A stretch of 64,000 nt of DNA, taken from positions 372,001-436,000 of the forward strand of contig JAOALD010000003.1 of assembly GCA_025153755.1 (NCBI GenBank). Direction: 5' to 3'. Positions within the stretch are counted from its first letter, which is position 1. Every line of letters starts with the position of its first letter. This document shows, piece after piece, positions 41,786 to 61,091 of the stretch. Source of the DNA: SAR92 clade bacterium H921 (GTDB lineage: Bacteria > Pseudomonadota > Gammaproteobacteria > Pseudomonadales > Porticoccaceae). The translations under genes and the position numbers were made by a program. Below the pieces are notes generated by a model. It was not told the DNA's origin, searched no databases, and saw nothing but the letters and a program-made list of their open reading frames with translations.

Positions 41786-41835
41786 AATCCCTTCTTATTA
41801 AATGTTTTTAGTAGTGTTAGGTCGCTCCCCTAAGA

Positions 41836-42845: not shown

Positions 42846-44918
42846 TTACTTAAAACGTTTGCCCTGCTCTGCCAGAGATACCAGCAGCGGGCTCGGCGCC
42901 CAAAAATCATCGCCTGTCAATTCATGGTAGTGACGGATTTTAGCCAGCACCTTGTCCAGACCAATGGTGTTGGCGTAGTGCATTGGACCGCCACGATAGA
43001 CCGGCCAGCCATAGCCATACACATAGGTCACATCAATATCACTGGCCCGCATGGCGATACCCTCGTCCAGAATCTTTGCACCCTCATTGATCATTGGCAG
43101 CAAGCATCGGTCAAGAATCTCTTCCTCAGACATCTGTTTCTGCTTAATACCTTGAGTGGCAGCCACCTCGGCAAATAATTCGGCGGTAACAGCCGCAGGG
43201 GTGGGCATACGATTTTCATCATAATCATAGTAGCCTGCACCAGTCTTCTGACCATAGCGACCTAGATCACAGAGCCGATCTTTAACGTCTGTTGGATTGG
43301 AGTTACCCTTATCCCAGCCCAGATCTAAGCCTGCCAAGTCGCCCATTTGGAAGGCACCCATAGGAAAACCAAAATCAAATAACACCTTGTCTATCTGCTC
43401 AATAGGCGCGCCGGCAAGGGCCAGATTTGAGGCTTCGATCTGACGCATAAACAGGATACGGTTGCCTACAAATCCCGGGCACACACCAACCAACACTGCC
43501 ACTTTACGAATTCGTTTAGCCAGAGCCATACCGGTTTTAATCACCGCATCGGAGGTTTTGTCTCCGCGCACTACCTCGAGTAGTTTCATAACATTCGCGG
43601 GTGAGAAAAAGTGCAGCCCAATAACCGATTCCGGGCGATTGGTTACAGAGGCAATCTCATTTAGATCCAATGCCGAAGTATTGGAGGCCAAAATAGCTCC
43701 GGCTTTAGCAATGCCGTCCAGACGCATGAAAATATCTTTCTTCACCGCCATATTTTCAAAAACAGCTTCGATAATTAGATCACAGTCGGCAAGATCAGCC
43801 ATATCCAATGTACCCTGAATCAAACTACAGCGCTGCTCAACGGCTTGTTCGGTTAGGCGACCTTTACGTGCTGTGTTTTCATAATTTTTCCGAATAGTAC
43901 CTAGACCACGGTCAAGCGCTGCCTGATTAGTTTCAACAATTGTGACGGGTATCCCGACATTGGCGAAGTTCATTGAGATTCCGCCACCCATCAAACCTCC
44001 ACCAATAACACCCACCTTGGTGATGGGTAGCTCAGCAACATCTTTATCGATGCCTGGAATCTTACTTGCCTGACGCTCGGAGAAGAAAAAATATTGCTGA
44101 GCCTGTGACTGAGCTCCAGTGACCAACTCGGCGAACAGCTTGCCTTCGGTCTGTAAGCCTTCATCAAAGGGTTGGTTAACTGCCGCCTCAATACAGCGAA
44201 TATTGTATTCCGGGGCCAAAAAACCACGTGTCTTTCGAGCGATCATCTTGCGAGTAGCCGCAAAAATTTCTGGGTTATCTTTAGCGCCCTGAAGTTTTTC
44301 ATCATTGTCGCGCACCCTTGGGTGAGGACCGGCTTCGGCACCTTTTTCAATGGCCAGGGCAAGTCCAGCAGCCCGCAGATCATCGCCCACCATCTGATCA
44401 ATAAGACCCAGTTCAAGGGCTTCAGCAGCACCAATCGGTGCGCCAGAAGTTACCATCGCCAGAGTCTTCTCAACACCAATAACACGCGGCAATCGCTGTG
44501 TACCACCCGCGCCAGGAAGCAGACCAAGATTTACCTCTGGCAGACCAAATTTGGCACTGGCCACTGCCACTCGGTAGTTGCAACAAAGTGCAGTTTCCAG
44601 ACCGCCACCCAAAGCAGTGCCATGAATCGCTGCAACAATAGGCTTGGGCGAATTATCCATGGTCGAGAGTACCTCATGAAAATTGGGTTCCATGGGACCA
44701 GAGGAAAATTCCGATATATCGGCGCCAGCAATAAAAGTTCGGCCTTCACAAACTATTAGAACGGCCTGCGCAGAGTCATCGGCTAAAGCTTTTACAACTC
44801 CATCTTTAAGGCCCTGACGAACACCTTGACTCAAGGCATTGACCGGCGGGTTATCAAGGGTTAACACAGCGACACCCTCCTCGACGCTGTAGTCAACCAT
44901 AGATGTTAGCGCGACCAT
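42846..44918 (-). CDS. Bifunctional enoyl-CoA hydratase / 3-hydroxyacyl-CoA dehydrogenase (FadJ/peroxisomal type)
   Basis: Beta-oxidation protein of 690 aa. The N-terminal crotonase domain (about 1-200) has GRTFIAGADISEF, GTALGGGLETAL and LPEVNLGLLPGAGGTQRLPR. The central NAD-binding domain has VGVIGGGLMGGGISMNFA (about 300-320), and IGLHFFSPANVMKLLEVV and VCPGFVGNRIL belong to the dehydrogenase; the C-terminal half-domain ends the protein. AGGAG precedes the ATG. It leads the operon FadJ-like/NMO/APH kinase/NMO, and a 17-bp palindrome overlapping a TTGACA lies about 30 bases upstream of its start. Confidence 0.95.
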   Translation of the reverse strand: MVALTSMVDYSVEEGVAVLTLDNPPVNALSQGVRQGLKDGVVKALADDSAQAVLIVCEGRTFIAGADISEFSSGPMEPNFHEVLSTMDNSPKPIVAAIHGTALGGGLETALCCNYRVAVASAKFGLPEVNLGLLPGAGGTQRLPRVIGVEKTLAMVTSGAPIGAAEALELGLIDQMVGDDLRAAGLALAIEKGAEAGPHPRVRDNDEKLQGAKDNPEIFAATRKMIARKTRGFLAPEYNIRCIEAAVNQPFDEGLQTEGKLFAELVTGAQSQAQQYFFFSERQASKIPGIDKDVAELPITKVGVIGGGLMGGGISMNFANVGIPVTIVETNQAALDRGLGTIRKNYENTARKGRLTEQAVEQRCSLIQGTLDMADLADCDLIIEAVFENMAVKKDIFMRLDGIAKAGAILASNTSALDLNEIASVTNRPESVIGLHFFSPANVMKLLEVVRGDKTSDAVIKTGMALAKRIRKVAVLVGVCPGFVGNRILFMRQIEASNLALAGAPIEQIDKVLFDFGFPMGAFQMGDLAGLDLGWDKGNSNPTDVKDRLCDLGRYGQKTGAGYYDYDENRMPTPAAVTAELFAEVAATQGIKQKQMSEEEILDRCLLPMINEGAKILDEGIAMRASDIDVTYVYGYGWPVYRGGPMHYANTIGLDKVLAKIRHYHELTGDDFWAPSPLLVSLAEQGKRFK

Positions 44919-44950
44919 ATATTTCTCCTAAATTTTAGCTACATTTGTAT

Positions 44951-44967
44951 TGGCATATTTTATGTCA
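44951..44967. promoter_or_regulatory. Proposed TetR-type operator 1 (upstream of FadJ-like operon)
   Basis: TGGCATA-TTT-TATGTCA, a 17-bp palindrome with one mismatch between the arms. On the minus strand it includes a perfect -35 hexamer TTGACA, so bound protein would block the FadJ-like operon. It also lies upstream of the broken gene at 45087. It shares the pattern TGRCAYA-N3-WMYGYCA with four other sites in this window. Confidence 0.6.
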
Positions 44968-45086
44968 AATAGTACATTACAATCGAGACTGAATACCAGA
45001 TGTTTGAATAATAATAACCCACTGGTCAGTGATCTGCCTCATCAGATAGTGACTATGGGGTTGCGTTATATTAGGGATTATTAAAA

Positions 45087-45377
45087 ATGACACAGACCGC
45101 CAAACGTTGGCTGTCCAGCCTAATTATCTAAGGTTTATTTATACTCTGGCACACCGACTTTTCTAGGCCCCTAAGAGACGAAGAAGCGGAATAGTTTGTC
45201 GCCACTTTTAAGGCTCGTAACAGTACATCAAAATACATTAGCTACATCGAAAGATTTTTGCGCATTGACACAGGGCGACAATTTTTAATGCTCAATATTT
45301 TGGGTATGGCCGACAGCCCGCGATATGTTGCGGGCGCCCAGCCCGGTGAAAGCGCCGATCTTAAAGCCGTCTATTAG
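45087..45377 (+). pseudogene. Truncated, stop-interrupted paralogue of the membrane protein at 61092-61682
   Basis: Reading from the ATG at 45087 gives 96 codons with in-frame TAA (45129-45131) and TAG (45192-45194) before the final TAG. The protein-like parts align with the 196-aa protein encoded at 61092-61682: WHTDFSRPLRDEEAE / WAWYVGLQGKLSQSEVAE, and FLRIDTGRQFLMLNILGM / FLANDDGREWFMINLLQL. It stops where the convergent GST-like gene ends (4-bp overlap), so the 3' half is lost. It starts next to operator 1, as its intact relative starts next to operator 4. Confidence 0.75.
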
Positions 45378-46495
45378 AGCCAGACTTCAACATTGTCCCG
45401 CTGCTCCATTCGGCGTTGTAGTTTGATTTCCAACAGCCCCCCAAGCTGACAGGACTCAAGCAAAGAATCGATATCAGCCCTCTCAGACTCAGCACAGGCC
45501 TGATAGGCATCCTGTACCAACTGCAACTGGAAAAATCTATAGGGCTGGGCACCCGCTTCAAGTTGCTGCCCACGGACTGTAAAGATTGCCTTGCCATCAT
45601 TTTGCCCCAGATAGCGAGAAGCAGGATCGCCAGCGGTTATAGAACTAGCCGCAAGTACTGAGTTAATTGAATCCGCCGCTGCTATAGTCTCGGGCAACAG
45701 ATCTTCTGCTACGACTCTCAGCACTTTTAGTAAGGTGTCCGGTATATGGTCATCAGCTATAAAATCTGTGCCGCCAGCGTAATGCTCAGGCGCATCCTGA
45801 TAAGAGCGATTCATACGCTCCACCCAACGATAAACATGCACCGCTTGTCTCTGCATAATGTGCAACGGTTTTGGGTCACGCCCCAAATGAGCAAAAAGAG
45901 GTGCTAGCAAACCAAAATCACCAATACAGGGCTTCCAGCCAAGTAGATAAGGATACTGTTCAAAGTGCTTATCCAGAGCCAGTAAAAACTCCATATAAAG
46001 AGTCTCCACCAACGTCTGACTCTCATCATTTACACCAAATATAGCAGCCGCATAGCGCATCTTATTCATCATGTGCTGAGTCTTTGCTTCCCGATCTGGA
46101 TGTTCTCTTTGGGAGTGGAAAAAATGATAATGCAAAAACGTCAGATTCTCTTCCGGAAAATTCCACCGATAATGCATCGCAGGACGCAGCAAACCCTCAG
46201 TACCAATTAGATCGAACAGTCCACTTACAACTTGCTGTTTTGCCGTAGTTGGCTTACAGGGGCGGCCATTAGCTGCCTCAAAATATTCAATAATAGCTGC
46301 ACCATCCCGGATCACCTGCCCCTGCTGCGTTCGCAAGACTGGAATAGTAGCCAGTTTCGCTTCAGGCAAAATCTCAGCCTTAAAACTCTCGTGACCACAG
46401 GAAATTTCCTTGAAGGAAATACCATTTTTAATTAAATAAGAACGAGCACGTCCAGAGTAAAGAGAATGAGGAATAGCGTAAAGAGAGTGAGTCAT
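45374..46495 (-). CDS. Glutathione S-transferase-like protein (large form)
   Basis: A 373-residue protein with an N-terminal thioredoxin fold (about 1-80; SLYAIPHSLYSGRARSYLI, with VIRDGAAIIEYFE as the glutathione-binding Ser/Glu turn) and a longer all-helical C-terminal region containing GDFGLLAPLFAHL. No Cys is at the active-site position; Ser/Tyr are candidates. The ATG at 46495 follows AAAGGA with 8-base spacing. It is a diverged paralogue of the gene at 50786-51823; both are much longer than classical GSTs (about 210 aa). It is the last gene of the sulfatase operon. Confidence 0.82.
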   Translation of the reverse strand: MTHSLYAIPHSLYSGRARSYLIKNGISFKEISCGHESFKAEILPEAKLATIPVLRTQQGQVIRDGAAIIEYFEAANGRPCKPTTAKQQVVSGLFDLIGTEGLLRPAMHYRWNFPEENLTFLHYHFFHSQREHPDREAKTQHMMNKMRYAAAIFGVNDESQTLVETLYMEFLLALDKHFEQYPYLLGWKPCIGDFGLLAPLFAHLGRDPKPLHIMQRQAVHVYRWVERMNRSYQDAPEHYAGGTDFIADDHIPDTLLKVLRVVAEDLLPETIAAADSINSVLAASSITAGDPASRYLGQNDGKAIFTVRGQQLEAGAQPYRFFQLQLVQDAYQACAESERADIDSLLESCQLGGLLEIKLQRRMEQRDNVEVWL

Positions 46496-46496
46496 T

Positions 46497-48293
46497 TCAA
46501 AGTCCTTTGCGGTGCTTAGATTTATACACAACCGCAAAAGGCAGTATGAGTAAAAAGAGAATAATAATAATCAGGATATTGTCCCGATAAATAAGGTGAA
46601 GAGCGTTAAATATAATCTGAGTTTCATGTCTGTAACCAGCAGGCACAGGCAAGATATTATTATCATCGATATATTGCTGGTACCGGTTCAGCATAAGTTG
46701 TAATTGAGCGGGATTCTCAGCACTGAGATCTCTGGTCTCTCCTGGATCAACTTGAATATTAAACAGGTGCCACTGGCTGTCACCCTGGGTCCCGTGATTA
46801 AATACAATTTTAAAATCACCCATAAACAATGCACCTTGGCCCGCCAATTCAAAGCCCACAGCGTTGTCGGTACCATGAACAGACTCTACTTTGCCTTCAA
46901 CTAAGGGCGCCAGACTACGCCCAATCATTGGCTCCACCTTGCGCCCACCGTAGCGCCCGCGTTTAAGACCCTGGGGATGCTCCACTTCAGCCAGAGATAA
47001 AATCGTCGGTGTAATATCAGTTACATAGGCGGAGGCATTGCTAAATTGATTTTTGATGGCTACTGGCCCACCGGCAATAATCATCGGAACTCTCAAGCCC
47101 CCTTCGCCAACATAAAATTTGTAATAGGCTAAGGGAGATGCCGCCGCACTCGCAAAGCCCGGATTAATTGCATTAAAGCTGCCTTTTAATCCCAGAGTCT
47201 CGTAGTCAACACTATAGTCTCGAGCCGCTAATGTCAGAGTATTCCCCCACGAATTCTGACGCGCTAAACCCATGGCTTCAGCTCCATTATCGGAGGTGAA
47301 AATAAATACCGTATTATCATATTGGCCAATCGCTTTTAGATACTCAACTAGTCTGCCAATATGGTGGTCCATCGCCTCAACCATGGCCCCATAAACAGCC
47401 ATTCGTTTGGCTTCATAAGCTTGTCGCTGGGGACTTAAAGCCTCCCAATCAGCAGTACTGGCCATTTGCACTGTCATAGTATCGGCGGGCACAACTCCCA
47501 ACTCAATGGCCCGCTCCAGTCGCTGTTGCCGCAGTGCGCTCCAACCCTGATCATAAACGCCCATGTAACGGTCAATAAATTTCTGGGGGGCCTGCACTGG
47601 GATATGCACGGCTTGAAAAGGCACATAGGCAAAAAATGGTTGCCCGTCATTCTTATTACTGTCGATAAACTCAATGGTTTTATCCACTAAAAAGCGCGAC
47701 GAATAAAAGTTATCTGGGAGCTGATACTCTTCGCCGTCCGCATACCAATTAGCTTTTTTATAAATAGGAATATAGGGTTTTTGTTCCCAGTTATCCGCAC
47801 CGGAATCTGCAAGAGCCAAGGTACGGTCAAAACCACGCCTACTGGGTAATTTGTCCTCTGTTTGCCCCAGATGCCATTTCCCGGCTAGATAGGTGTGATA
47901 GCCAGCATCCTGCAACAGGGAAGCAACCGTCACCACATTATGGCTCAACGTGCCCGCATAATGGCTGTGTACCGCCTGCACCGGGGGAATCATTTCGGGA
48001 ATATTTGGCACACCTGCTCTATGGCTATCTACCCCCGTTAACAACATCGCACGAGACGGCGCGCAGTTGGCCCCTGTGTGATAATTTGTAAAACTAACGC
48101 CCTGCTCTGCCAGAGCAGTTATGCTTGGAGTACGGATTTCACTACCATAGGAAGCAAGATCACTGAACCCCAGATCATCGGCCAGAATCAATACAACATT
48201 GGGACTGTTTTGAGCAAATATCAAAGAGGATTTGCCAAGTGTCAGCAACATAATAACTAGGGCGGCCAACGCCTTGCCTACTCCCAAAATCAA
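46497..48293 (-). CDS. Arylsulfatase (type I, formylglycine-dependent), exported
   Basis: Hydrolyses sulfate esters. Metal-binding ILADDLGFSDLASYG follows a signal peptide (1-27, ending FAQ). The CxPSR motif (GANCAPSRAMLLTG) has Cys77, the residue converted to formylglycine, and GKWHLGQ, FAYVPFQAVHIPVQ and TSDNGAEAM complete the active site. At 598 aa it is full length, with a C-terminal membrane helix (ILIIIILFLLILPFAVVY) that suggests anchoring at the membrane. It is coupled to the DUF4345-like gene upstream by a 4-base overlap. The substrate cannot be told. Confidence 0.95.
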   Translation of the reverse strand: MILGVGKALAALVIMLLTLGKSSLIFAQNSPNVVLILADDLGFSDLASYGSEIRTPSITALAEQGVSFTNYHTGANCAPSRAMLLTGVDSHRAGVPNIPEMIPPVQAVHSHYAGTLSHNVVTVASLLQDAGYHTYLAGKWHLGQTEDKLPSRRGFDRTLALADSGADNWEQKPYIPIYKKANWYADGEEYQLPDNFYSSRFLVDKTIEFIDSNKNDGQPFFAYVPFQAVHIPVQAPQKFIDRYMGVYDQGWSALRQQRLERAIELGVVPADTMTVQMASTADWEALSPQRQAYEAKRMAVYGAMVEAMDHHIGRLVEYLKAIGQYDNTVFIFTSDNGAEAMGLARQNSWGNTLTLAARDYSVDYETLGLKGSFNAINPGFASAAASPLAYYKFYVGEGGLRVPMIIAGGPVAIKNQFSNASAYVTDITPTILSLAEVEHPQGLKRGRYGGRKVEPMIGRSLAPLVEGKVESVHGTDNAVGFELAGQGALFMGDFKIVFNHGTQGDSQWHLFNIQVDPGETRDLSAENPAQLQLMLNRYQQYIDDNNILPVPAGYRHETQIIFNALHLIYRDNILIIIILFLLILPFAVVYKSKHRKGL

Positions 48294-48667
48294 TCTTCCT
48301 CTGCCAATCTAATCGAGCCAACATAAAGAATTACGCAGACAATAACTTCCACAGCAATCATATCTAACGCCAGACTAGCGTTATGAAACATCCATGCCAT
48401 AGTGCGCATAATTGCAGTTAGAGCGAGCAGAATAATCGGTGGGTAGTACCAGATCCGGCGGCCGGTAGTAAGAGCCAGCAAAATAAAGATCGCAATGGAT
48501 AAAAAGAAGGCTCCCAAATCACCAATCTGTGAACTCAGTCCTGAACCTTCCATCAAGGTCATACCAAACTCTGCCGCAACACCTTCAGGCGCAACAATCC
48601 AGCGCAGACCAATTGAGGCAAAAATCACTGCCGTTAATGCCACTATAATTTTTAAAATTTTAATCAT
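48290..48667 (-). CDS. Small four-helix membrane protein, DUF4345-like
   Basis: A 125-residue protein with four hydrophobic helices and the motif GLRWIVAPEGVAAEFGMTL, followed by QIGDLGAFFLSIAIFILLAL; the pattern is like DUF4345, an uncharacterised family. The ATG at 48667 follows GAGG with 6-base spacing; the frame is open 12 codons upstream. It overlaps the sulfatase start by 4 bases. A helper role for the sulfatase or its substrate transport is only a guess. Confidence 0.75.
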   Translation of the reverse strand: MIKILKIIVALTAVIFASIGLRWIVAPEGVAAEFGMTLMEGSGLSSQIGDLGAFFLSIAIFILLALTTGRRIWYYPPIILLALTAIMRTMAWMFHNASLALDMIAVEVIVCVILYVGSIRLAEED

Positions 48668-48704
48668 TATTAGCCTCGAGTTTTTTAATATTGAATTTAA
48701 CAAA

Positions 48705-48995
48705 TTAAATAATATCTAGGACTTCGATAACTGGCGCTGCCATAACTAGAGCCCCCATCGCTTTATTAGCCTCGCGGAAATAGTCTGTTTTGCCATGGGC
48801 ATCTATGTCCGCTGCACTGCGATACTGCTCCATCACTACATATTCTTGTGGGTTTGACTTACTGCGCGTTAGCGTATACATCAATGCGCCTTTCTCATTA
48901 GCCAAAACTTTTTCAGTCAGTTGCAAAAACAATGTTTCAAATTCTTCATTTTTACCCTCTTGTACGGTAATTCTTGCTATTACTGCTAGTGCCAT
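48705..48995 (-). CDS. Antibiotic-biosynthesis-monooxygenase (ABM) domain protein
   Basis: A 96-residue ferredoxin-like alpha-beta barrel of the ABM/YgiN family (quinol monooxygenase or similar): ALAVIARITVQEGKNEEFETLF at the start and YVVMEQYRSAADIDAH in the middle. GGAGG lies 5 bases before the ATG at 48995; an ATG four codons upstream is less well placed. Members are dimers acting on quinols, aromatic or polyketide substrates without cofactors. It lies between the tandem DsbA-like gene and the DUF4345-like gene in the same operon. Confidence 0.85.
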   Translation of the reverse strand: MALAVIARITVQEGKNEEFETLFLQLTEKVLANEKGALMYTLTRSKSNPQEYVVMEQYRSAADIDAHGKTDYFREANKAMGALVMAAPVIEVLDII

Positions 48996-49042
48996 GATGG
49001 CCTCCATTTATTTATTGAATTGTCGACTAATACCTGTGGATT

Positions 49043-50431
49043 TTATTTGTTATCTGTTAACTGATGTTCAATCTCTCGAGCCACCAACCAAAGCCTGTCC
49101 TGCCCCCAAAGGGACAGCACCGATTCACCCTGTTTATTTAAAAGCCTAAAGCTCGGTACACCCCAGAGGCCCGATTCATACATCGCCAGGCGATTGCTCT
49201 CGAGCATGTCCTCCCAACCAGACTTTCCCACAATGGTCTTGGCCACTGACCAATCTAGCCCAGCGTTCTCAACCACCTGCTTTAGACCATGAGAATTGTT
49301 CGTACTGACACCATCGACGAATGCCGTCTTTAAAAAACTAGATATCAACTGGTTGCCCCGCCCCTGCGAACAGGCCCAAGGGTAAAGGGAATAACAACGC
49401 CGCACTGGCTCCCCAATCGGATCATAAAATTTACCAAAGGGTACACCTGCTCTGCGCGCCTCTCGCGCCGCATCAGCAAAGATATACAGACCTTTTTCCC
49501 TTGTCGCAGGCACACCGCGCATGACCATAGGCAGTACCGGGCGCACTACTAAGTTAATGCCTGTTGACTCAGCTAATTTAAGCGTCTGATCAAAGACCAC
49601 AGCAGTATATGGACTGCGCAATGACGGATATATCTCAAGTGTCAGACTACCGTTGTCTCGGAGATTGTCCACTTCGACCACAAAGCGCTTTGTCAACATT
49701 GGTTTTTCACGATCAAGGTCAGCGCCTAATTCGGCGAGACGCTCTTCAAGATAATGCAGACGGTCAACACCCCAGTACCATTCTTCACCGTAATAAAACA
49801 TGGCCCCTGAATAGTGTTTCAACTCAGTACGGCGTGCGTTGCCAGTAACGAGGCAGTCTCGACGTTGCTGAGCCGTCGCGCAGCCATTTTGCTCTGCTAA
49901 CGTATTAAGAGTTTCATTATCACCAGACCAGAGCGCGGAGCCAACGGTTGCCGCCAGAGCAATAAAATTTGCGCTCGATTGCTGCTCCAAAATAGTAAAG
50001 GCCAAAATCGATTCAGCCAATTCAATAGCGGCTCGACCAGGTAAGCCCTTGGCATCTGGTGGCTCCAGACCGTAATGAGGCGCAATACAACAGGCGTCGT
50101 TTTGAGATAGTTTTATTAGTAATTCAGGTTCAACAGAGTTGTCTCCTGAAGGCCCAGTCACTAAATGACAACGCAGTTCAATATCATAACGGGCGCTAAG
50201 CGCCATCAGTACTTGAGCCGCTAAATGGCTATAACCGTCCTCTACCTGATGAAAGTACTCAACCACATGCCGAGCGCCCGCGGAATGTCGGCGCTTTTCA
50301 ACCTTTTTGCGCCTCTTTGCCGATCGATGAGAACTAATTACTAAAGTCATAATTTTAGAGGATAACCAGCGATAGGCTGTGCTGGGATCCATGGTGGCGG
50401 CACCCCCCTGCTCTTTGAACTGCTTGACCAT
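49043..50431 (-). CDS. Tandem DsbA-like / 2-hydroxychromene-2-carboxylate isomerase-family protein
   Basis: A 462-residue protein with two thioredoxin-fold DsbA/kappa-GST-type modules. The first begins near VEYFHQVEDGYSHLAAQVL and is degenerate; the second begins near LEIYPSLRSPYTAVVFDQT and has the GVPFGKFYDP segment and the C-terminal GVPSFRL of the family. Neither has a CxxC pair, as in HCCA isomerases and kappa GSTs, which use glutathione. A two-module fusion is unusual. It heads the operon tandem protein/ABM/DUF4345/sulfatase/GST-like. Confidence 0.82.
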   Translation of the reverse strand: MVKQFKEQGGAATMDPSTAYRWLSSKIMTLVISSHRSAKRRKKVEKRRHSAGARHVVEYFHQVEDGYSHLAAQVLMALSARYDIELRCHLVTGPSGDNSVEPELLIKLSQNDACCIAPHYGLEPPDAKGLPGRAAIELAESILAFTILEQQSSANFIALAATVGSALWSGDNETLNTLAEQNGCATAQQRRDCLVTGNARRTELKHYSGAMFYYGEEWYWGVDRLHYLEERLAELGADLDREKPMLTKRFVVEVDNLRDNGSLTLEIYPSLRSPYTAVVFDQTLKLAESTGINLVVRPVLPMVMRGVPATREKGLYIFADAAREARRAGVPFGKFYDPIGEPVRRCYSLYPWACSQGRGNQLISSFLKTAFVDGVSTNNSHGLKQVVENAGLDWSVAKTIVGKSGWEDMLESNRLAMYESGLWGVPSFRLLNKQGESVLSLWGQDRLWLVAREIEHQLTDNK

Positions 50432-50785
50432 TGTCGCACCCTAGGTTGGTTTTTATTACTATAAGTTAGTGACAAACTATCAACTTATGCTTAGAAAATA
50501 AACTGGCATAGATACTGATATTTATTTTAATCGACTATAACGGTTATTTGCTATCATGATCAGACTTGGCCAATCGCTCCAGTGTCAACGCCCTTATCTA
50601 CAAAGACCAATAAGGGCTATTGAGTTAGTGACGGTGCTCAGTAAGTTTCTTGTGTACTAGTTGCCCTATATACTTTTCGTGGTTTTTTAGACTCTCTGAC
50701 GTTAGAGTTGCAGGAGGTATAAATCTGCTCGAGCACAATACCACCAAGATGACGATAAGTTTTTACTTCTAGTCCAGTCTGAAAC
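50432..50785. other. Promoter region of the sulfatase operon and 3' flank of the GST-like gene
   Basis: This 354-base gap has no gene that I can support. It contains a weak copy of the 17-bp operator motif at 50504-50520 near the sulfatase operon start. A stop-free minus-strand frame (50638-50817) has no usable start and no recognised family. Confidence 0.4.
50504..50520. promoter_or_regulatory. Weak proposed TetR-type operator (sulfatase operon)
   Basis: TGGCATA-GAT-ACTGATA has the left arm of the shared motif intact and the right arm degraded. It is 73 bases upstream of the tandem DsbA-like gene. Given alone it would not be convincing; it is listed because of the neighbours' sites. Confidence 0.3.
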
Positions 50786-51823
50786 TTAAAATATAATCTT
50801 CTCGCAACCGGTGCCCTCTAGCATGCCGTCCACTCGGCTACGATCATCAGCACTAAGCGCTTGGTACTCTCCGTTAATCCACTGCAAGCACTTGCCCTGA
50901 TAGTTAAAGGTTTGCTGAGTCCAGCGACTGCCATCAATCTCAGTCTCCCAGGATTTCTCGCCCGACTGCATCGCCGCAGCATTGGCAAGCAGCGCTGGTG
51001 CATAGACATGGCCGACCTCGTTAAGCAGGCCTTTGAGGGTGGCAGGCGCGGTTTCAGTAGTGGCCCAGTCTCTAGACTGAGGCTCCAGACCAGCTTGATC
51101 CTCTAACAAGTCTGTATAGGCCACGCTACGTGGCGAAAGGCTATGGGCAATCGCTCTAGATGTGGGATCAAAACCCACCAACTGTGTTAGTTGGCCGTAT
51201 ACCGCAAAGTCAGAGGTTCCAGGGCGGCCGCCCATAAGGTAAGGCTGTTGCGATAAATGCGCCTCCATCGCGCGCAGAAAACGTTTATAGCTGGCATCAA
51301 TAACAGGTGCCGTAACCTCATTGGATCCCACTACATGCAGTCGCCCCACCTGGCGTTGGGTAATATATGATTTAGCTTGATGTAATTGCTCGACAGGTAA
51401 ATTAATTTTTTGCAATAGCGGTAATAGTGTGCCGGCATTGTCAGCATCGGTCTCTTTGTGCCAGCGATAATGGAACATATACTTGGTACACCATTCATCA
51501 GCAAAGTCTTCCAGCAGATAATCGATAAATGCCATGGCCGGATCATTAGGAATCACTGAGCGCCCTTCATGTTCGGCCTCCAAGCGGCGAATAATCGGGG
51601 TAGAGTCGCAAACAGCCTGTTGCTGTCCTGCCGCATCGGGCAACACATAGGTTGGCAATAAAGTCACCTTGGGCTTGGGAACACCCATCTCGGTCAATAT
51701 CGCGGCAGGGTCACCCCAGGCAATACAATAGGCAATGCGGCGATATCTCATGAGCGCAATCATTTTTCTGGTGTAAGGAGATGCCGGTGCGCCGATTAGG
51801 GTAATAGCATTACTTTTCAGCAT
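50786..51823 (-). CDS. Glutathione S-transferase-like protein (large form)
   Basis: A 345-residue paralogue of the gene at 45374-46495. The N-terminal thioredoxin fold starts ITLIGAPASPYTRKMIALMRYR, the turn before the glutathione site is CDSTPIIRRLE, and the helical domain contains LMGGRPGTSDFAVYGQL, typical of GST C-terminal domains. The CxxC position is occupied by SPYT. The ATG at 51823 follows AAAGGA with 6-base spacing; the open frame extends 11 codons further. It is divergent from the metallo-beta-lactamase-fold gene with operator 2 between them. Confidence 0.83.
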   Translation of the reverse strand: MLKSNAITLIGAPASPYTRKMIALMRYRRIAYCIAWGDPAAILTEMGVPKPKVTLLPTYVLPDAAGQQQAVCDSTPIIRRLEAEHEGRSVIPNDPAMAFIDYLLEDFADEWCTKYMFHYRWHKETDADNAGTLLPLLQKINLPVEQLHQAKSYITQRQVGRLHVVGSNEVTAPVIDASYKRFLRAMEAHLSQQPYLMGGRPGTSDFAVYGQLTQLVGFDPTSRAIAHSLSPRSVAYTDLLEDQAGLEPQSRDWATTETAPATLKGLLNEVGHVYAPALLANAAAMQSGEKSWETEIDGSRWTQQTFNYQGKCLQWINGEYQALSADDRSRVDGMLEGTGCEKIIF

Positions 51824-51884
51824 AGGGTTTCCTTTAATAACGGCCATTTTTTGCACTAGCTCTTAACGGTCAGGCGAAATATAT

Positions 51885-51901
51885 TGACACAGCAACTGCC
51901 A
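51885..51901. promoter_or_regulatory. Proposed TetR-type operator 2 (between GST-like and MBL-fold genes)
   Basis: TGACACA-GCA-ACTGCCA, sharing the pattern TGRCAYA-N3-WMYGYCA, lies between two divergent starts (61 bases from one, 48 from the other). It overlaps a TTGACA hexamer on the plus strand, so it could control both directions. Confidence 0.55.
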
Positions 51902-51949
51902 ACATGTCACCATCTTTTTAAACATTTAACATATCAGACGAGGGTGACT

Positions 51950-53020
51950 ATGAAAAAAACTATTATTATTGGCATGATTGCCCTTGTAATAGCGATTGGT
52001 ATCTTTAGTAAGCGCAGTGAAATTGCTCTGCGCATTTTGCCTGCCGCAGTGGAAACCATGTTAGCCGGCAATAAAATTGAAGCGCTTGGAGACGGTCTTC
52101 ATATCGCCCTTTGTGGTGCTGGTGGTCCCATGCCAGCAGCCAATCGCTCAGGGCCCTGCGTTGCTGTTGTTGCAGCAGGTAAACTATTTTTGGTTGATGC
52201 AGGCGCAAATGGCGTACGTAACTTGGGCCGCATGGGCTATCAGGTGGGTAGTATTAGCGGCGTATTTTTGACTCACTTCCATTCTGACCATATTGATGGT
52301 CTTGGCGAGGTCGCTACTCTCCGCTGGGCGTCGGCAAGTCACAATGCTCCGTTAAATATTTACGGCCCCGAGGGTGTAAGTCAGGTAGTCGACGGCTTCA
52401 ATCAGGCCTATGGGCAAGACAAAATTTATCGCAATGATCATCATGGAGACACCGTTACACCACTGCGTGGCGCGGGTATGATTTCCGTGAGTAGCCCAAC
52501 ACCAATCGATGGAGAACTGATCAGCGTTTATCAACAGGATGGCTTAAAAGTGGAGATGTTAGCCGTAGATCATGTTCCAATCTCCCCTGCTGTGGCCTAT
52601 AGATTTAGCTATAAAGACCGCACTGCGTTGATCTCTGGTGACACCAACAAATCAACCAATATAGAAAAGTTTGCCCAAGATATTGACCTTTTGGTGCATG
52701 AGGCACTGAGCCCTAACATGCTCAAAGCTATGAATAAGGGCGCCACCGCCGCTGGTTTGCCCAATACAGCCCAAATATTTCACGATGTCCTTAATTACCA
52801 TGCCTCTCCCATCGAGGCCGCCGAAACCGCACGAGATGCCAATGTGGGCCATCTGCTCTACTACCATGTAGTGCCGCCACTAACCATGCCAGGCAGTGAG
52901 GCCATCTGGCTAGAGGGCGTCGAAGAACGATTTAGCAACTACACGCTGGGAGAGGATGGCACTAGCATATCACTGCCGGTCAACTCTACTGAAATCATTG
53001 TCAGTGGCAGTAGCCTATAA
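51950..53020 (+). CDS. Metallo-beta-lactamase-fold hydrolase, membrane-anchored or exported
   Basis: A 356-residue protein with an N-terminal hydrophobic segment (KTIIIGMIALVIAIGIF, residues 3-19). The zinc motif THFHSDHIDG (HxHxDH) is clear, SGDTNKSTN supplies the bridging Asp, and HVVPP the last His region. It resembles RNase Z/AtsA-type hydrolases; in this context a sulfatase, esterase or lactonase role is possible. The ATG at 51950 follows GAGGGTGACT; the frame is open 22 codons further upstream, but that part runs over operator 2. The TetR gene follows 56 bases downstream. Confidence 0.88.
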   Translation: MKKTIIIGMIALVIAIGIFSKRSEIALRILPAAVETMLAGNKIEALGDGLHIALCGAGGPMPAANRSGPCVAVVAAGKLFLVDAGANGVRNLGRMGYQVGSISGVFLTHFHSDHIDGLGEVATLRWASASHNAPLNIYGPEGVSQVVDGFNQAYGQDKIYRNDHHGDTVTPLRGAGMISVSSPTPIDGELISVYQQDGLKVEMLAVDHVPISPAVAYRFSYKDRTALISGDTNKSTNIEKFAQDIDLLVHEALSPNMLKAMNKGATAAGLPNTAQIFHDVLNYHASPIEAAETARDANVGHLLYYHVVPPLTMPGSEAIWLEGVEERFSNYTLGEDGTSISLPVNSTEIIVSGSSL

Positions 53021-53035
53021 AAAGCTGAGTAATTG

Positions 53036-53052
53036 TGACATAATGAACGCCA
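53036..53052. promoter_or_regulatory. Proposed TetR-type operator 3 (upstream of tetR)
   Basis: TGACATA-ATG-AACGCCA ends 24 bases before the start of the TetR gene. Its position suggests autoregulation. It is the clue that ties the shared motif to this regulator. Confidence 0.55.
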
Positions 53053-53076
53053 TATTACCCAGAGCAGTGGCACCCT

Positions 53077-53670
53077 ATGACCAATAACGCCAGCAGTCCC
53101 GCTAAAATTGATGGCAGACGTCTCCGCAGTGATCGCAGCCGCCAGTTGATTATTGAGTCAATGCTGCAATTGATCAAAGAAGGCAATCTAGTACCCACAG
53201 CTCAGCAAGTGGCCGACCATGCCAAAGTGGGTATCCGCTCCGTGTTCCGACACTTCGAAGATATGGAAGCTATTTTTGCTACCGCCGATGAGTTATGGCG
53301 TAAGAATTTTGAAGACTATCTGGTAATTATTGATCCTCAGTTAAGCGTGAGCCAACGGATTTCTGTCTCCGCTGAACATCTTGGCAATATGTTTGAGGCC
53401 CATTCTAATATTTTAAAATCCACTGCTACCCGGCGCTGGCGGTCGAACTTTTTGAAGCAGAAGTATGCCAGCTATCAGGAAAAAATACGTAATAACCTGA
53501 GGGCCAGGTTACCAGAGCTTGAAACTCTCTCTCCCAGTAAGCAGGAAGCGATTATTGGTATTTTATCTTTTGAGTACTGGGACCGCCTTCGCGAACATCA
53601 ATCTCTAAGTACGGCCGATAGTATAAAGTCCATTATCGAACTCCTGAGTTCCCTTCTTGGCTCTAAATAA
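53077..53670 (+). CDS. TetR family transcriptional regulator
   Basis: A 197-residue regulator. The helix-turn-helix (about residues 15-65) contains LIIESMLQLIKEGNLVPTAQQ and the recognition part VGIRSVFRHFEDMEAIF; the rest is the helical ligand-binding and dimer domain. It lies in the middle of the catabolic region, and a palindrome shared with at least four other promoters is just upstream. I infer it represses this regulon and is released by an acyl-CoA or other pathway intermediate. The ligand is unknown. Confidence 0.93.
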   Translation: MTNNASSPAKIDGRRLRSDRSRQLIIESMLQLIKEGNLVPTAQQVADHAKVGIRSVFRHFEDMEAIFATADELWRKNFEDYLVIIDPQLSVSQRISVSAEHLGNMFEAHSNILKSTATRRWRSNFLKQKYASYQEKIRNNLRARLPELETLSPSKQEAIIGILSFEYWDRLREHQSLSTADSIKSIIELLSSLLGSK

Positions 53671-53798
53671 AAAGTATTTTATTCCGAACTTGCGGGTCAT
53701 GGTTTTACATTTACAGAGAAAGCACCGCAGAGCTACTCTCTAGCTCAGTGAGGGTTAACGGCCCTGATGTAGTTATTATTAATGTTCGAGGTATCCCC

Positions 53799-54383
53799 AT
53801 GGCGCAAACCATTGAGTTTTATTTTGACTTTGGCAGCCCTACAGCCTATTTAGCCCATAAGCGCCTGCAACAGTTAAAGGTACAGTACGCCTGTTCTCTA
53901 GACTACAAACCAGTTCTTCTCGGCGGTCTGTTCAAAGCCTCAGGTAATACGTCTCCAGTTACAGTGCCCGCAAAAGGTAGGTACATGATGACTCAGGATC
54001 TGCCTCGCTTCGCTGCCCTTTATGAGGTGCCACTGACTGTAAATCCCCACTTCCCCATCAACACATTGAATTTAATGCGTGGTGCAGTTTCAACCCAAGG
54101 CCGTGAGGACTTCGATAGCTATGTTGAAACCGTCTTCAATGCGATCTGGGTCAATGGTGATAATATGGGTGATCCAGATGTAGTGGCCAACGTACTTAAA
54201 AACGCGGGTCTGGATGCAACTAAAATAATGGCCTCCACTCAGGAAGCAGAGGTCAAATCTAAATTAATCAGCAACACCGAAGCCGCCGTGGCCCGAGGAT
54301 GTTTTGGTGCGCCAACTATGTTTGTTGGCGATAATATGTTTTTTGGTCAAGACCGCATGCAGTTCATTGAAATGTTACTATAA
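53799..54383 (+). CDS. 2-hydroxychromene-2-carboxylate isomerase-family (DsbA-like) protein
   Basis: A 194-residue thioredoxin-fold protein: IEFYFDFGSPTAYLAHKRLQ, KPVLLGGLFKASGN, and FGAPTMFVGDNMFFGQDRM are the signatures of HCCA isomerase / kappa GST-type proteins that use glutathione. The active-site Ser is in FGSPTAY. The ATG at 53799 has GAGGT 7 bases upstream; the longer frame from 53748 is less likely. It is 40 bases before the PQQ dehydrogenase gene, so both may act on one compound. Confidence 0.9.
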   Translation: MAQTIEFYFDFGSPTAYLAHKRLQQLKVQYACSLDYKPVLLGGLFKASGNTSPVTVPAKGRYMMTQDLPRFAALYEVPLTVNPHFPINTLNLMRGAVSTQGREDFDSYVETVFNAIWVNGDNMGDPDVVANVLKNAGLDATKIMASTQEAEVKSKLISNTEAAVARGCFGAPTMFVGDNMFFGQDRMQFIEMLL

Positions 54384-54423
54384 TAAAAAAATCAGTCTTC
54401 TTTAAAGAGACCCGGAGAATCCT

Positions 54424-56631
54424 ATGCTTTCTCGCCTAACCCAAGTAGCAAGCGCGCTAACACTAATCAGCTGTTTTATGCAGGCTCAAGCCACTGTGGT
54501 CAACGAACAGTCAATTGCCGACCCAGACAAGGAGTGGCTAAGTTATGGGCGGGATTACAAAGAGCAGCGCTTCAGCCCCATTGCTAAAGTTAACCGAGAC
54601 AACGTCAACAAGCTTGATTTGGCTTGGTCGTTTAAATTTGATACTGCGCGAGGAATGGAAGCAACGCCCCTTGTGCATAATGGCGTCATCTATGTCAGCA
54701 CCGGCTGGAGCCATGTTCATGCTCTAGATGCCAGAACTGGCGAACAAATCTGGCATTACGATGCAAAAGTACCCAAGGACCACCTAATTAAAACCTGCTG
54801 TGGAGCTGTAAACCGTGGCGTAGCCATGTGGCAGGGTGATACTGAGACCGGTTTGCAAATATTTTTTGGCACACTCGATGGCCGCCTAGTAGCCCTAGAT
54901 GCTAAAACCGGCACAGCAAACTGGGTAGTACAGACTACTCCAGATAATAGCAACTACAGTGTTACCGGCGCACCGCGCATAGTCGATGGTAAAGTAATAA
55001 TTGGTAATGGTGGCGCCGAACTTGGCGTACGTGGTTACATCACCGCTTATGACACTGCCACCGGAGAGCAATTATGGCGTTTCTACACTGTGCCGGGCGA
55101 CCCCAGCAAGCCGCAGGAACACCCAGCGCTAGAGGCAGCTGTTAAAACATGGGGTGGCGATGAATGGCATAGGCTGGGTGGTGGCGGCGGTACCGTTTGG
55201 GATTCCTTAGTCTATGATCCGGAACTCGACCTACTTTATATAGGAACAGGCAATGGCTCTCCGTGGAATCGGGAACTGCGCAGTCCAGGTGGTGGAGATA
55301 ACCTCTATTTAAGTTCTATAGTGGCTCTGCGCCCAGATACCGGCGCCTATGTCTGGCACTATCAGGTAACCCCGAAAGACAACTGGGACTACACTGCCAC
55401 ACAGCAACTTACATTAGCTGAGATAGAAATCAATGGTGAGCAACGTAAGGTAATAATGCAGGCACCCAAAAATGGTTTCTTCTATGTTTTAGATCGAGAA
55501 ACAGGGGAATTATTGTCTGCCGAAAAATTTGCCAAAGCCACTTGGGCCAGTCACATCGATATGGCAACCGGCCGTCCCGTAGAAACTGAATATGCCGACT
55601 ACCAAAAGAATGGTGGCAGTTATATCTGGCCATCGCCCTATGGCGCCCACAACTGGCAGCCCATGTCGTTCAGCCCCAAGTCTGGCCTTATGTATATTCC
55701 AGTACAGAATATACCCCATTATTTCAGTGCTCAAAAATCTGTTGAGTACCGAGTAAACCGTTGGAATACTGGCGTAGATTTAAATGAGTCTAGAGACCCT
55801 CTAAGTTGGGTAGCAGGACAGGCCGCAGCCGATGCATTGATCAGCGGAGAACTACTTGCCTGGGATCCAGTTAATCAGCGGCCAGCATGGAAAGTACCAC
55901 ATGCAAGCCCGGCTAACGGCGGCATACTCAGTACTGCCGGGAACCTGGTATTCCAAGGTAAGGGTAACGGTACCTTCGCCGCCTATGACGCAGACAACGG
56001 TGATGCGCTATGGCAATATCAGTCGGACAGCGCCGTTCTTGCCGGCCCCATGACCTATGAGCTAGATGGCGAGCAATATGTAGCCGTTGCTCAGGGCAGT
56101 GGAGGTACAGTTATGCTGACCATCGGAGATAATCTCAAACGCAATAAAGTAAATCAGAACAAACTTCTTGTATTTAAACTCGGCGACTTTGGCCTTACCA
56201 GAAGCCTAGCCGATGAGAGCCTGGCTACCATCTTGCCTCTGAGTGAAGAATTGACTGCCACTCCAGAAGATATTAGAAAAGGTGAAGAGCTCTACGGCCA
56301 TAACTGCGGCACCTGCCACGGCATCAGCGCCAAAAGCAACTATATAGTACCGGACCTGCGCTACATGAGCGACCAGACCCATCGCGACTTTATCGGCATT
56401 GTGCTGGGTGGTTCTAAATCACACAAAGGTATGGTGGGTTTCTACGAGACTCACTCAGCCCAGGATGTCGAAAATATCCACTCCTACCTCAAGCATCAGC
56501 AGCAGCGACTACCCGAGATGGTAGAGATGACCTTTGCCCAGAAGATAGAGTATTGGTTTTCCTACGGCATAGCTAAGTTGGGAGAAAAGTTTCCCTGGAT
56601 ATTGAACGCTACAAGAGACATGATGTATTAA
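54424..56631 (+). CDS. Quinohaemoprotein (PQQ, haem c) alcohol dehydrogenase
   Basis: Exported periplasmic oxidoreductase of 735 aa. After a signal peptide (1-23, ending AQA) comes an eight-bladed PQQ propeller: VNRDNVNKLDLAWSFKF, vicinal Cys125-Cys126 (the disulfide over PQQ), GGGDNLYLSSI with probable catalytic Asp292, and W-docking repeats (LDARTGEQIW, YDADNGDALWQY). A C-terminal cytochrome c domain has CGTCH (628-632). This is the type II quinohaemoprotein layout, oxidising primary or secondary alcohols. No pqq biosynthesis genes are in this window. It is followed by a strong terminator. Confidence 0.95.
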   Translation: MLSRLTQVASALTLISCFMQAQATVVNEQSIADPDKEWLSYGRDYKEQRFSPIAKVNRDNVNKLDLAWSFKFDTARGMEATPLVHNGVIYVSTGWSHVHALDARTGEQIWHYDAKVPKDHLIKTCCGAVNRGVAMWQGDTETGLQIFFGTLDGRLVALDAKTGTANWVVQTTPDNSNYSVTGAPRIVDGKVIIGNGGAELGVRGYITAYDTATGEQLWRFYTVPGDPSKPQEHPALEAAVKTWGGDEWHRLGGGGGTVWDSLVYDPELDLLYIGTGNGSPWNRELRSPGGGDNLYLSSIVALRPDTGAYVWHYQVTPKDNWDYTATQQLTLAEIEINGEQRKVIMQAPKNGFFYVLDRETGELLSAEKFAKATWASHIDMATGRPVETEYADYQKNGGSYIWPSPYGAHNWQPMSFSPKSGLMYIPVQNIPHYFSAQKSVEYRVNRWNTGVDLNESRDPLSWVAGQAAADALISGELLAWDPVNQRPAWKVPHASPANGGILSTAGNLVFQGKGNGTFAAYDADNGDALWQYQSDSAVLAGPMTYELDGEQYVAVAQGSGGTVMLTIGDNLKRNKVNQNKLLVFKLGDFGLTRSLADESLATILPLSEELTATPEDIRKGEELYGHNCGTCHGISAKSNYIVPDLRYMSDQTHRDFIGIVLGGSKSHKGMVGFYETHSAQDVENIHSYLKHQQQRLPEMVEMTFAQKIEYWFSYGIAKLGEKFPWILNATRDMMY

Positions 56632-57015: not shown

Positions 57016-57843
57016 TTAGCTACCGGTAAACTTCGCTGGCCTGCGCTCGGCAAAGGCCATGATTCCCTCACTTAAATCATTCGACTCTAGGCTGGTCATC
57101 ATTGTGTACATACCGTTCACCATTAAACTTTGCTCGTCAGTCAAATTCTCTGATTGACGCAGTATGAACTTGGTTCCGCGCACAGCCATAGGAGAATTGC
57201 TTGCTATTTCTTCTGCCAGTGCTAGGCCCGCAGCCATAGTGGCCTCGGCCGTTTCATACACGTCATTTACCAAGCCAATCTTTTCCGCCCGATCAGCTTT
57301 AATATCTTTACCGGTATAGGCCAGCTCAGCAACATGACCAGCATTAAGTATCTTGGGCAAACGCTGCAAGGTACCTACATCGGCTACGAGACCTAGGCGA
57401 GTTTCGCGAACACTAAAAACTGAGCAGGCACTGGCGACACGAATATCGCAGGCAGTAATCAAGTCTACACCCGCACCCAAACAAAAGCCCTGCACCACGC
57501 CAATAACCGGCAATTCACATTCGGCCAATGAACTTATGGCCTGCTGAAATTTTTGCGTGTTACTCAACTGCAGGATGTTGGCTTCAGCTTTGGAGCGCGC
57601 CTTGGTTTTCTTATGCTGGCTTAGGCCGTCCTCTGCTAGGTCAATGCCAGCACAGAAATGCTTACCTCGACCAGCTAAAACAATAGCACCAACATCTGGG
57701 TCTTCGCACAGCGCCTCCAAACCATGAGGTATGGATGACCAGAGCTCGGTAGACAGCGCATTGTATTTGGCCTCACGATCTAACCAGATAATGCCGACCC
57801 GACCTTGTTTTTCGATACTTAGTACATTGGATGAAAAGCTCAT
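57016..57843 (-). CDS. Enoyl-CoA hydratase/isomerase (crotonase) family protein
   Basis: Acyl-CoA enzyme of 275 aa. The oxyanion-hole segments GRGKHFCAGIDLAEDG and VVQGFCLGAGVDLITACDIRVAS are present, and RLGLVADVGTLQRLPK resembles delta3,5-delta2,4-dienoyl-CoA isomerase (ECH1-like) because of the Asp in GLVADVGT. Hydratase activity therefore is not assured. The ATG at 57843 is used; TTG at 57849 is possible. It is the last gene of the operon with ACAD, SDR, OYE and the unknown membrane protein. Confidence 0.9.
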   Translation of the reverse strand: MSFSSNVLSIEKQGRVGIIWLDREAKYNALSTELWSSIPHGLEALCEDPDVGAIVLAGRGKHFCAGIDLAEDGLSQHKKTKARSKAEANILQLSNTQKFQQAISSLAECELPVIGVVQGFCLGAGVDLITACDIRVASACSVFSVRETRLGLVADVGTLQRLPKILNAGHVAELAYTGKDIKADRAEKIGLVNDVYETAEATMAAGLALAEEIASNSPMAVRGTKFILRQSENLTDEQSLMVNGMYTMMTSLESNDLSEGIMAFAERRPAKFTGS

Positions 57844-57863
57844 TATCAATTCTCTATATTCGT

Positions 57864-59090: not shown

Positions 59091-59117
59091 TATATTCTCC
59101 CGTAAATTAATTTGTTG

Positions 59118-59894
59118 TTAGAGACCACCGGTGATTTTGCGCATTAGTTTATTCATTCCACCAATCCAGCGATCATAATTGTTCGTTTTGTTTTGCATAA
59201 ATTCCCTCACAATAGGGTGAGGAAGTATTAAAAAACTCTCTTCGCGCAACCCCTCAACCACCGTATCTGCAAGTTCCTCTGGCTCGATCATGCCGTTGTT
59301 TGCGGCGGCGGCGACGGCGTCATTATCAACAGCAGTCATGGCTGTCCGCACAGCCTGAGGGCACAGCATCGAGACGCCAATACCTTCATGCTTGTGATGG
59401 ATTGCCAGCCATTCGCCAAAGCCTATGGCGGCATGTTTAGTTACACCATAGGCGGCGCCACCGATTTGATTGAGCAGCCCGGCTGCAGATGAAGTGTTAA
59501 GAAAATAGCCGCTACCTCGCTCCACCATTCTCGGCACGAGGTGCCGGGCAGCGTAGACATGAGACATTACATTGATATCCCAAATAGACTGCCACTCGGC
59601 ATTGGGAGAATGGATACTCTCACCTAAACCAACACCGGCATTACAGCAAAACAGGTCTATAGGGCCTATCTCGCTTTCTGTATCTTCGATGATACGCGCT
59701 GTGTCCTCTTCTTTGGCAACATCTGCCATCATGGCAACACCACCAATCATGGCAGCAGTCTCTCGAGCGTTGGCGAGATTGATATCCGCGCAGACGATTT
59801 GTTTGGCGCCTTCGGTGTGAAAGCGGACTGCTAGTGCTCGGCCTATACCACTGCCCGCTCCGGTAATTACGACTATTTTATTTTGCAGTTCCAT
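59118..59894 (-). CDS. Short-chain dehydrogenase/reductase
   Basis: NAD(P)-dependent oxidoreductase of 258 aa. The Rossmann motif is TGAGSGIGRAL (about 11-21), NAG is in FCCNAGVGLG, catalytic Ser is in NTSSAAG, and the YxxxK motif is AYGVTKHA. At ADINLANARE the acidic residue after beta-2 hints at NAD preference. It may oxidise a hydroxyl produced or handled by its operon partners. Substrate not determinable. Confidence 0.92.
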   Translation of the reverse strand: MELQNKIVVITGAGSGIGRALAVRFHTEGAKQIVCADINLANARETAAMIGGVAMMADVAKEEDTARIIEDTESEIGPIDLFCCNAGVGLGESIHSPNAEWQSIWDINVMSHVYAARHLVPRMVERGSGYFLNTSSAAGLLNQIGGAAYGVTKHAAIGFGEWLAIHHKHEGIGVSMLCPQAVRTAMTAVDNDAVAAAANNGMIEPEELADTVVEGLREESFLILPHPIVREFMQNKTNNYDRWIGGMNKLMRKITGGL

Positions 59895-61074: not shown

Positions 61075-61091
61075 AGGATCTTCCTTGTTAA

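Follow-up and report, generated by a model that had tools for sequence, protein, structure and literature searches.

In SAR92 and related OMG bacteria, sulfatases are generally taken to act on polysaccharides. For sulfated small molecules, a close described counterpart of the locus considered here is the SLF module of Psychrobacter pP62BP1 (SlfR-SlfCHSL, alkyl sulfate/sodium dodecyl sulfate (SDS)), which shares with it a sulfatase, alcohol/aldehyde oxidation, an acyl-CoA synthetase, a dedicated repressor, and desulfation that is predicted here, too, to occur outside the cell (PMC10779009). The locus lies in a 64,000-nucleotide stretch of DNA from SAR92 clade bacterium H921, the whole of which was analysed and is called the window (G000:C7:372001-436000). 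Its genome (G000) belongs to a marine gammaproteobacterium, is 2.57 Mb in size and 98% complete, and all results presented here are comparative and sequence-based. The window carries a conserved gene set, of which GSTa, SULF, TM137, ABM, DSB2, and GSTb lie, in this order, on the minus strand, followed by MBL, TETR, HCCA, and PQQ on the plus. A palindromic operator is the new result of this analysis: one predicted operator fronts GSTb/MBL(-TETR-HCCA-PQQ), FADJ, the OYE operon, the acyl-CoA ligase operon, and several remote operons, and it tracks the presence of TetR. The conserved set is probably the core of a catabolic regulon for a sulfated lipophilic molecule.

Protein families were called with Pfam and NCBIfam, solved relatives were taken from the PDB, and the open reading frame (ORF) starts of GSTa and GSTb were corrected, that of GSTa by comparison with sister genomes. 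The features, in window positions, are as follows (PWM, position weight matrix; GST, glutathione S-transferase; FGly, formylglycine; MBL, metallo-beta-lactamase; HCCA, 2-hydroxychromene-2-carboxylate; PQQ, pyrroloquinoline quinone; OYE, Old Yellow Enzyme; SDR, short-chain dehydrogenase/reductase; ACAD, acyl-CoA dehydrogenase; ECH, enoyl-CoA hydratase; NMO, nitronate monooxygenase).

39753-42804, minus strand: NMO1, APH-like, and NMO2 genes, the downstream part of the FADJ operon (Pfam, NCBIfam, synteny)
42846-44918, minus strand: FADJ, predicted two-domain enoyl-CoA hydratase/3-hydroxyacyl-CoA dehydrogenase, adjoining the set throughout the genus loci (Pfam, NCBIfam)
44946-44972: operator site TGTATTGGCATATTTTATGTCAAATAG upstream of FADJ (PWM score 22.4; exact pattern match at C7:416949)
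45374-46495 (ORF listed to 46537), minus strand: GSTa, GST-like protein (Pfam GST_N_3; synteny)
46497-48293, minus strand: SULF, predicted exported FGly-type sulfatase with a C-terminal membrane anchor (PF00884, 207.8 bits)
48290-48703, minus strand: TM137, small membrane protein usually preceding a SULF-type sulfatase (paired with SULF in unrelated loci)
48705-49007, minus strand: ABM-fold protein (PF03992)
49043-50431, minus strand: DSB2, tandem HCCA-isomerase/kappa-GST-like protein (Pfam, profile match, predicted structure)
50786-51823, minus strand: GSTb, GST-like protein with Ser at the N-terminal active-site position (Pfam, fold comparison)
51880-51906: operator site TATATTGACACAGCAACTGCCAACATG in the divergent GSTb/MBL promoter (conserved block in 13 genomes; PWM)
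51950-53020 (ORF listed from 51884), plus strand: MBL, predicted exported MBL-fold, S4-type arylsulfatase-like protein with an HFHSDH motif (PDB 8gyg)
53031-53057: weak operator-like site just upstream of TETR (PWM score 14.1)
53077-53670, plus strand: TETR, TetR-family regulator and putative operator binder (Pfam, genome co-occurrence, conservation of the helix-turn-helix (HTH))
53799-54383 (ORF listed from 53748), plus strand: HCCA, HCCA isomerase/kappa-GST-like enzyme (PF01323, 151.8 bits)
54424-56631, plus strand: PQQ, predicted exported type II quinohaemoprotein alcohol dehydrogenase, PQQ propeller plus haem c (TIGR03075)
57016-61682, minus strand (reading from 61682 down to 57016): operon g196-OYE-SDR-ACAD-ECH (Pfam, NCBIfam)
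61736-61762: operator site upstream of the g196-OYE-SDR-ACAD-ECH operon (PWM score 28.4)
62470-62496: operator site 48 bp upstream of the acyl-CoA ligase operon (PWM score 29.4)
62545-64000, plus strand: long-chain acyl-CoA synthetase, continuing past the window end and followed by ECH and SDR genes (NF006134)

The operator approximates TATATTGnCAT-N5-ATGnCAATATA, with TATATTGnCATAnnnTATGnCAATATA as the refined motif. Alignment of the divergent GSTb/MBL intergenic region from 13 genomes gave one conserved block, TATATTGACA-N6-TGCCAnnATGTCA, and the PWM was trained only on 12 orthologous GSTb/MBL sites. The first matrix found further sites in the g196 promoter of the window and in loci of other families, and none above threshold in the shuffled window. 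The 66 loci left out of training, mostly from other families with a few genus members or second loci of them, contained 71 matches in 150 kb of intergenic DNA, 41 in 971 kb of coding DNA, and 102 in 3.36 Mb of shuffled DNA, which is about 16-fold enrichment over background between genes and roughly background level inside them. Sites in these test loci lie upstream of TETR (13/21), the f13 sulfatase (7/10), f48 (4/4), GSTb (4/8), GSTa (5/11), and MBL (6/17), and g196, DUF2855, and others are further families downstream of them. The window has five sites, located before FADJ, GSTb/MBL, the g196 operon, and the acyl-CoA ligase, with the weak one before TETR. Remote sites in the same genome are found before DUF2855-f13 sulfatase (C7:440727), between f12 and HMG-CoA-reductase-DUF3604 (C7:19918), before an ACAD pair (C7:94812), before a third NMO (C6:611017), and near f20 (C1:468560). 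The same target families follow operator sites in other genomes, and the g196-OYE-SDR-ACAD-ECH operon stands behind an operator in G022 as well (L162).

The regulator most probably acting on this palindrome is encoded next to it. The strict pattern was counted in 36 genomes, some of them fragmented, as in all our genome comparisons, and 44 of its 45 sites fell in the 19 TetR-bearing genomes (reversed control, 4). Scored by genome, 16 had both site and TetR, 16 had neither, three had TetR only, and one had a site only (p = 2e-6). The recognition-helix region of TetR (VxIRSxFRHF) is almost invariant at an overall identity of 31-65%. Together with the site before TETR in 13 of 21 cases, this co-occurrence and the near-invariant HTH assign TetR to the palindrome, and we infer, with good support, that the TetR at 53077-53670 acts on it.

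The sequence-only reading had seen a concentration of glutathione-type thioredoxin folds around a sulfatase and a PQQ dehydrogenase, and had named beforehand, as a test, whether the genes are kept together in other genomes. They are: the full gene order is kept in six sister genomes (G004, G009, G011, G013, G019, and G022; proteins 61-92% identical), a shorter core, PQQ-HCCA-TETR-MBL/GSTb-DSB2-FADJ, is found in G003, G015, and G020, and the genes recur jointly in other families. In the genus (23 genomes), MBL and GSTb occur either together or not at all (14 both, 9 neither, p = 1.2e-6), and the pattern of DSB2 is nearly the same. In 80 named loci retrieved with the DSB2 alignment for the wider-family comparison, TETR, MBL, GSTa/GSTb, the TM137-SULF pair, and the f13 sulfatase recur around DSB2 in rearranged order (Halieaceae, Spongiibacteraceae, and others). 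Chance concentration of thioredoxin folds was thus ruled out by synteny and co-occurrence. The genes named in that reading were all recovered with Pfam and NCBIfam at about the positions given, including the two long GST-like proteins (GSTa, about 373 aa, and GSTb, about 345 aa after start correction), the tandem DsbA/kappa-GST-like protein, the HCCA-isomerase-like protein, the exported FGly sulfatase, the ABM protein, and the type II quinohaemoprotein alcohol dehydrogenase. Its extent, 45374-56631, does hold these genes, but the unit runs further in both directions, and TETR and TM137 were not on its list.

Several variations of the locus were also observed. In five of the six sisters (e.g., L016:7965-9488), DSB2 and ABM are separated by a gene for an acyl-CoA-carboxylase beta subunit, which is missing at window 49008-49042 and in G009, and a small membrane gene precedes DSB2 in some sisters and is not present in the window. 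One relative carries ABM and GSTa as a single 489-aa ORF (L129:13960-15429), and this fusion suggests a functional link between the window genes ABM and GSTa. Genes of glutathione-dependent formaldehyde dehydrogenase type and S-formylglutathione-hydrolase type were noticed by eye near TETR-DSB2-MBL in L066, L068, L070, and L082 (Luminiphilus-type genomes). TM137 was assigned to no family in Pfam and NCBIfam searches. Downstream of FADJ, NMO1 and NMO2 are nitronate-monooxygenase/FabK-like flavoproteins, and the APH-like protein has a phosphotransferase fold of the type partnering acyl-CoA dehydrogenases.

SULF is a full-length homologue of the P. aeruginosa arylsulfatase AtsA, an S1_4 FGly enzyme (best PDB match 1hdh, E 3.6e-117), with which it shares the CxPSR motif; unlike AtsA, it has a C-terminal membrane segment besides its signal sequence, a partner in TM137, and an operon context. 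Its activation motif reads CAPSRAMLLTG, and CAPSR or CAPAR is present in all 16 family members listed. The regulon holds a second FGly sulfatase family related to SULF, f13; in G031, a sulfotransferase-family gene adjoins the operator-controlled f13 sulfatase (L121:8856-9590). The gene previously read as an MBL-fold hydrolase does encode a predicted exported MBL-fold protein, but its identity is corrected to arylsulfatase-like, as its best solved relative is the arylsulfatase 8gyg (E 1.9e-23), followed by PNGM-1 (3.4e-13). SulfAtlas family S4 comprises RNase-Z-like MBL arylsulfatases (PMC5066984), and the sub-cut-off matches of MBL to RNase Z models (NCBIfam) agree with this description. MBL resembles the S4 enzyme AtsA of Pseudoalteromonas (P. 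carrageenovora; PMC5066984) in fold, HxHxDH motif (HFHSDH in MBL), and nearness to RNase Z, a likeness drawn from the motif and the 8gyg match, and differs from it in a predicted export with an N-terminal membrane anchor and in being a genomic partner of FGly sulfatases. The match to a solved MBL-fold arylsulfatase means that the set holds two unrelated predicted sulfatases.

A true formylglycine-generating enzyme (FGE) of 322 aa with a CxxxxC pair (CSDNYC) is encoded at G000:C1:415963. An FGE-domain protein of about 697 aa was rejected as the sulfatase maturase, being a PEGA-FGE whose G000 member lacks the Cys pair. G004, G011, G019, and G022 have a Cys-type sulfatase and only this PEGA-FGE type of about 697 aa, with canonical FGE not found, and a search of the genus for the anSME maturase found none.

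DSB2 (462 aa) matches the HCCA-isomerase profile in both its N half (E 1.7e-6) and its C half (E 1.1e-14), and its confidently predicted fold (AF2 pLDDT 90.9) matches kappa GST, FrnE, and HCCA isomerase. Direct HHalign comparison of the two halves aligned only a terminal WG-DRL motif. Ser273-Pro-Tyr in the C half is invariant in 41 sequences, and the N half reads Asp-Gly there, indicating that the catalytic Ser site survives only in the C half. HCCA has a DsbA-like fold with a glutathione-activating Ser (PDB 2imd, E 4.4e-24). Fold and active-site Ser are thus common to HCCA, the DSB2 C half, and NahD (HCCA isomerase)/kappa-class GST, from which DSB2 differs as a fused tandem whose first half is without the catalytic Ser, and no naphthalene pathway is present here. 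GSTb consists of a GST fold with extra C-terminal structure. A GST pathway for isoprene or styrene epoxide was rejected, as the IsoI matches were weak, StyI was a fold match, scores were far below cut-off, and no matching monooxygenase was found. A PHROGs search gave no matches. A DSB2 paralogue (about 54% identical), with no operator, is found in L029 (G000:C6:128001-148000), where its neighbours are an acyl-CoA ligase, an SDR, TonB receptors, and a haloalkane-dehalogenase-type gene.

The PQQ protein exceeds its family cut-off (TIGR03075, 646.8 versus 480 bits) and resembles ADH-IIB of P. putida HK5 over 658 residues (PDB 1kv9, E 4.7e-235), including the adjacent Cys-Cys pair and the haem c domain. 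It differs from ADH-IIB in that quinohaemoproteins of the window type are encoded in genomes without pqqC/pqqE. Neither gene was found in G000, with sister G009, which has both, as positive control; G009 is the only such genome in the genus, and most genus genomes with the quinohaemoprotein lack PQQ synthesis. G030, from another family, has 21 matches to the PQQ dehydrogenase and neither pqqC nor pqqE. Given these absences, PQQ must be supplied externally, or else the protein does not work as a PQQ enzyme. A PQQ enzyme in genomes without PQQ synthesis suggests PQQ exchange between marine bacteria.

Enzymes of the regulon include sulfatases of two folds and an alcohol dehydrogenase, all predicted to be exported, together with a long-chain acyl-CoA synthetase (NF006134, 696 bits versus a cut-off of 625), GSTs, and HCCA-like enzymes. 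On the beta-oxidation side, there are several acyl-CoA dehydrogenases (one pair PimC/PimD-like), hydratases, a FadJ-like enzyme, a thiolase, and MaoC-SDR-thiolase targets. Outside the window, f12 is a homologue of HLD-I-type haloalkane dehalogenases (6f9o, E 1.2e-86; 5esr, E 3.3e-100) which keeps the QDWGG nucleophile and GHF base motifs. An HMG-CoA-reductase homologue and a DUF3604 protein were also observed behind an operator at L151:5978-9294 (G000:C7:19978-23294).

In the proposed pathway, TetR would keep these operons repressed as long as no sulfated lipophilic compound, or CoA product of it, is present. The periplasmic sulfatases (FGly-type SULF and f13, and the MBL arylsulfatase-like protein) would release an alcohol, which the quinohaemoprotein would oxidise. 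After uptake, the long-chain acyl-CoA synthetase would activate the acid for shortening by the acyl-CoA dehydrogenases, hydratases, and FadJ-like enzyme of the regulon, and the GSTs, HCCA-like isomerase, DSB2, and haloalkane-dehalogenase-type hydrolase may remove or isomerise awkward groups. Several observations weigh against this scheme. Both sulfatases resemble arylsulfatases, no transporter was found in the gene set, and the missing pqqC and pqqE leave the dehydrogenase in need of imported PQQ. DSB2-ABM-TM137-SULF-GSTa has no strong site directly before it in the window (a degenerate one in sisters), the incomplete genomes G012 and G021 have sites and no detected TetR, and the site-TetR correlation is partly phylogenetic, since TetR is passed on along with its targets.

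The sequence-only reading placed desulfation and alcohol oxidation outside the cytoplasm, which agrees with the signal sequences and enzyme families. Its further proposal was glutathione-assisted steps inside on a cyclic or aromatic product; taken as the opening of a desulfated cyclic or aromatic (phenolic) compound by glutathione-dependent HCCA-like isomerases, it draws on the arylsulfatase-type relatives of SULF and MBL, the HCCA isomerase homologue with its active-site Ser, the tandem DSB2, and a 2-keto-4-pentenoate-hydratase-type gene identified by eye near the DSB2 paralogue in L029. However, the conserved set has no ring-hydroxylating or ring-cleaving dioxygenase, and the same operator stands on the long-chain ligase and beta-oxidation operons, so we regard this proposal as rather doubtful. 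The long-chain ligase, acyl-CoA dehydrogenases, FadJ-like enzyme, ECH, and dehalogenase-type protein under the operator make an aliphatic or lipid-like substrate at least as likely as a cyclic or aromatic one. Sulfated sterols or terpenoids, such as diatom sterol sulfates (PMC6356472), might instead undergo desulfation, ring/side-chain oxidation, and CoA-dependent side-chain degradation, in keeping with target operons that hold paired acyl-CoA dehydrogenases, MaoC, SDR, and thiolase, with a regulon member homologous to HMG-CoA reductase, with P450 and Rieske genes close to the f20 site, and with steroid degradation listed in a SAR92 genome report (PMC6588378). This is unlikely, since the operator targets include no steroid-ring enzymes (the genome was not searched for KstD/KshA/Hsa), the ACAD pair scores PimC/PimD-like, and the ligase is a long-chain acyl-CoA synthetase above cut-off, not a steroid ligase. 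The set genes also occur in other combinations, and for a few operator sites no TetR was detected in the genome, as would be expected if the genes formed a loose catabolic island with no shared control and the palindrome belonged to an unrelated regulator; the enrichment seen in the loci left out of training, located before exactly these families and before TetR itself, and the TetR-site correlation in 36 genomes make such an island very unlikely. A polysaccharide utilisation locus was rejected, as the conserved set has no glycoside hydrolase, polysaccharide lyase, or carbohydrate-binding module genes.

Returning to the sulfated lipophilic substrate, the dehalogenase and GSTs suggest that it may be halogenated. 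Chlorosulfolipids are put forward as a hypothesis only, with sterol sulfates and aryl sulfates also candidates, and degradation of algal chlorosulfolipids (polychlorinated C12-C27 alkyl mono-/disulfates) by the regulon is the boldest version, tentative and somewhat improbable. To our knowledge, no earlier genetic system has been proposed for chlorosulfolipids, and this would be the first. The two FGly sulfatase families and the MBL sulfatase would strip the sulfates, the haloalkane-dehalogenase-type enzyme and GSTs would remove chlorine, the quinohaemoprotein would oxidise the alcohol, and the rest of the chain would be broken down with the help of the long-chain acyl-CoA synthetase and the paired acyl-CoA dehydrogenases. 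Coastal Pacific water was reported to contain chlorosulfolipids when diatoms and dinoflagellates were in bloom (PMC13413282), and SAR92 is abundant in bloom settings (PMC8371827). Literature searches for bacterial chlorosulfolipid dehalogenation, HCCA isomerase in steroid clusters, and DUF3604 with sulfatase returned nothing.

With no glycan-active genes seen in the set and one operator tying it to lipid-type beta-oxidation, the locus suggests a concrete route for sulfated small molecules. Such a route would serve sulfated, possibly halogenated, small molecules of phytoplankton in bacteria of the SAR92/OMG type, which are abundant during algal blooms, and the operator offers a direct handle for finding the pathway genes and the inducer. 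The cluster contains S1-type and S4-like sulfatases but no S3-type alkylsulfatase (no search for S3 was made in the rest of the genome). The SLF module has an AraC-type regulator and a single alkylsulfatase, and forms one operon, whereas GSTs, a tandem kappa-like protein, a quinohaemoprotein, and dispersed beta-oxidation operons under one operator belong to the SAR92 regulon only. In its simplest reading, as desulfation, oxidation, CoA activation, and beta-oxidation of a sulfated lipophilic molecule, the regulon would follow a logic like that of Slf SDS degradation, on a larger scale and with other components.

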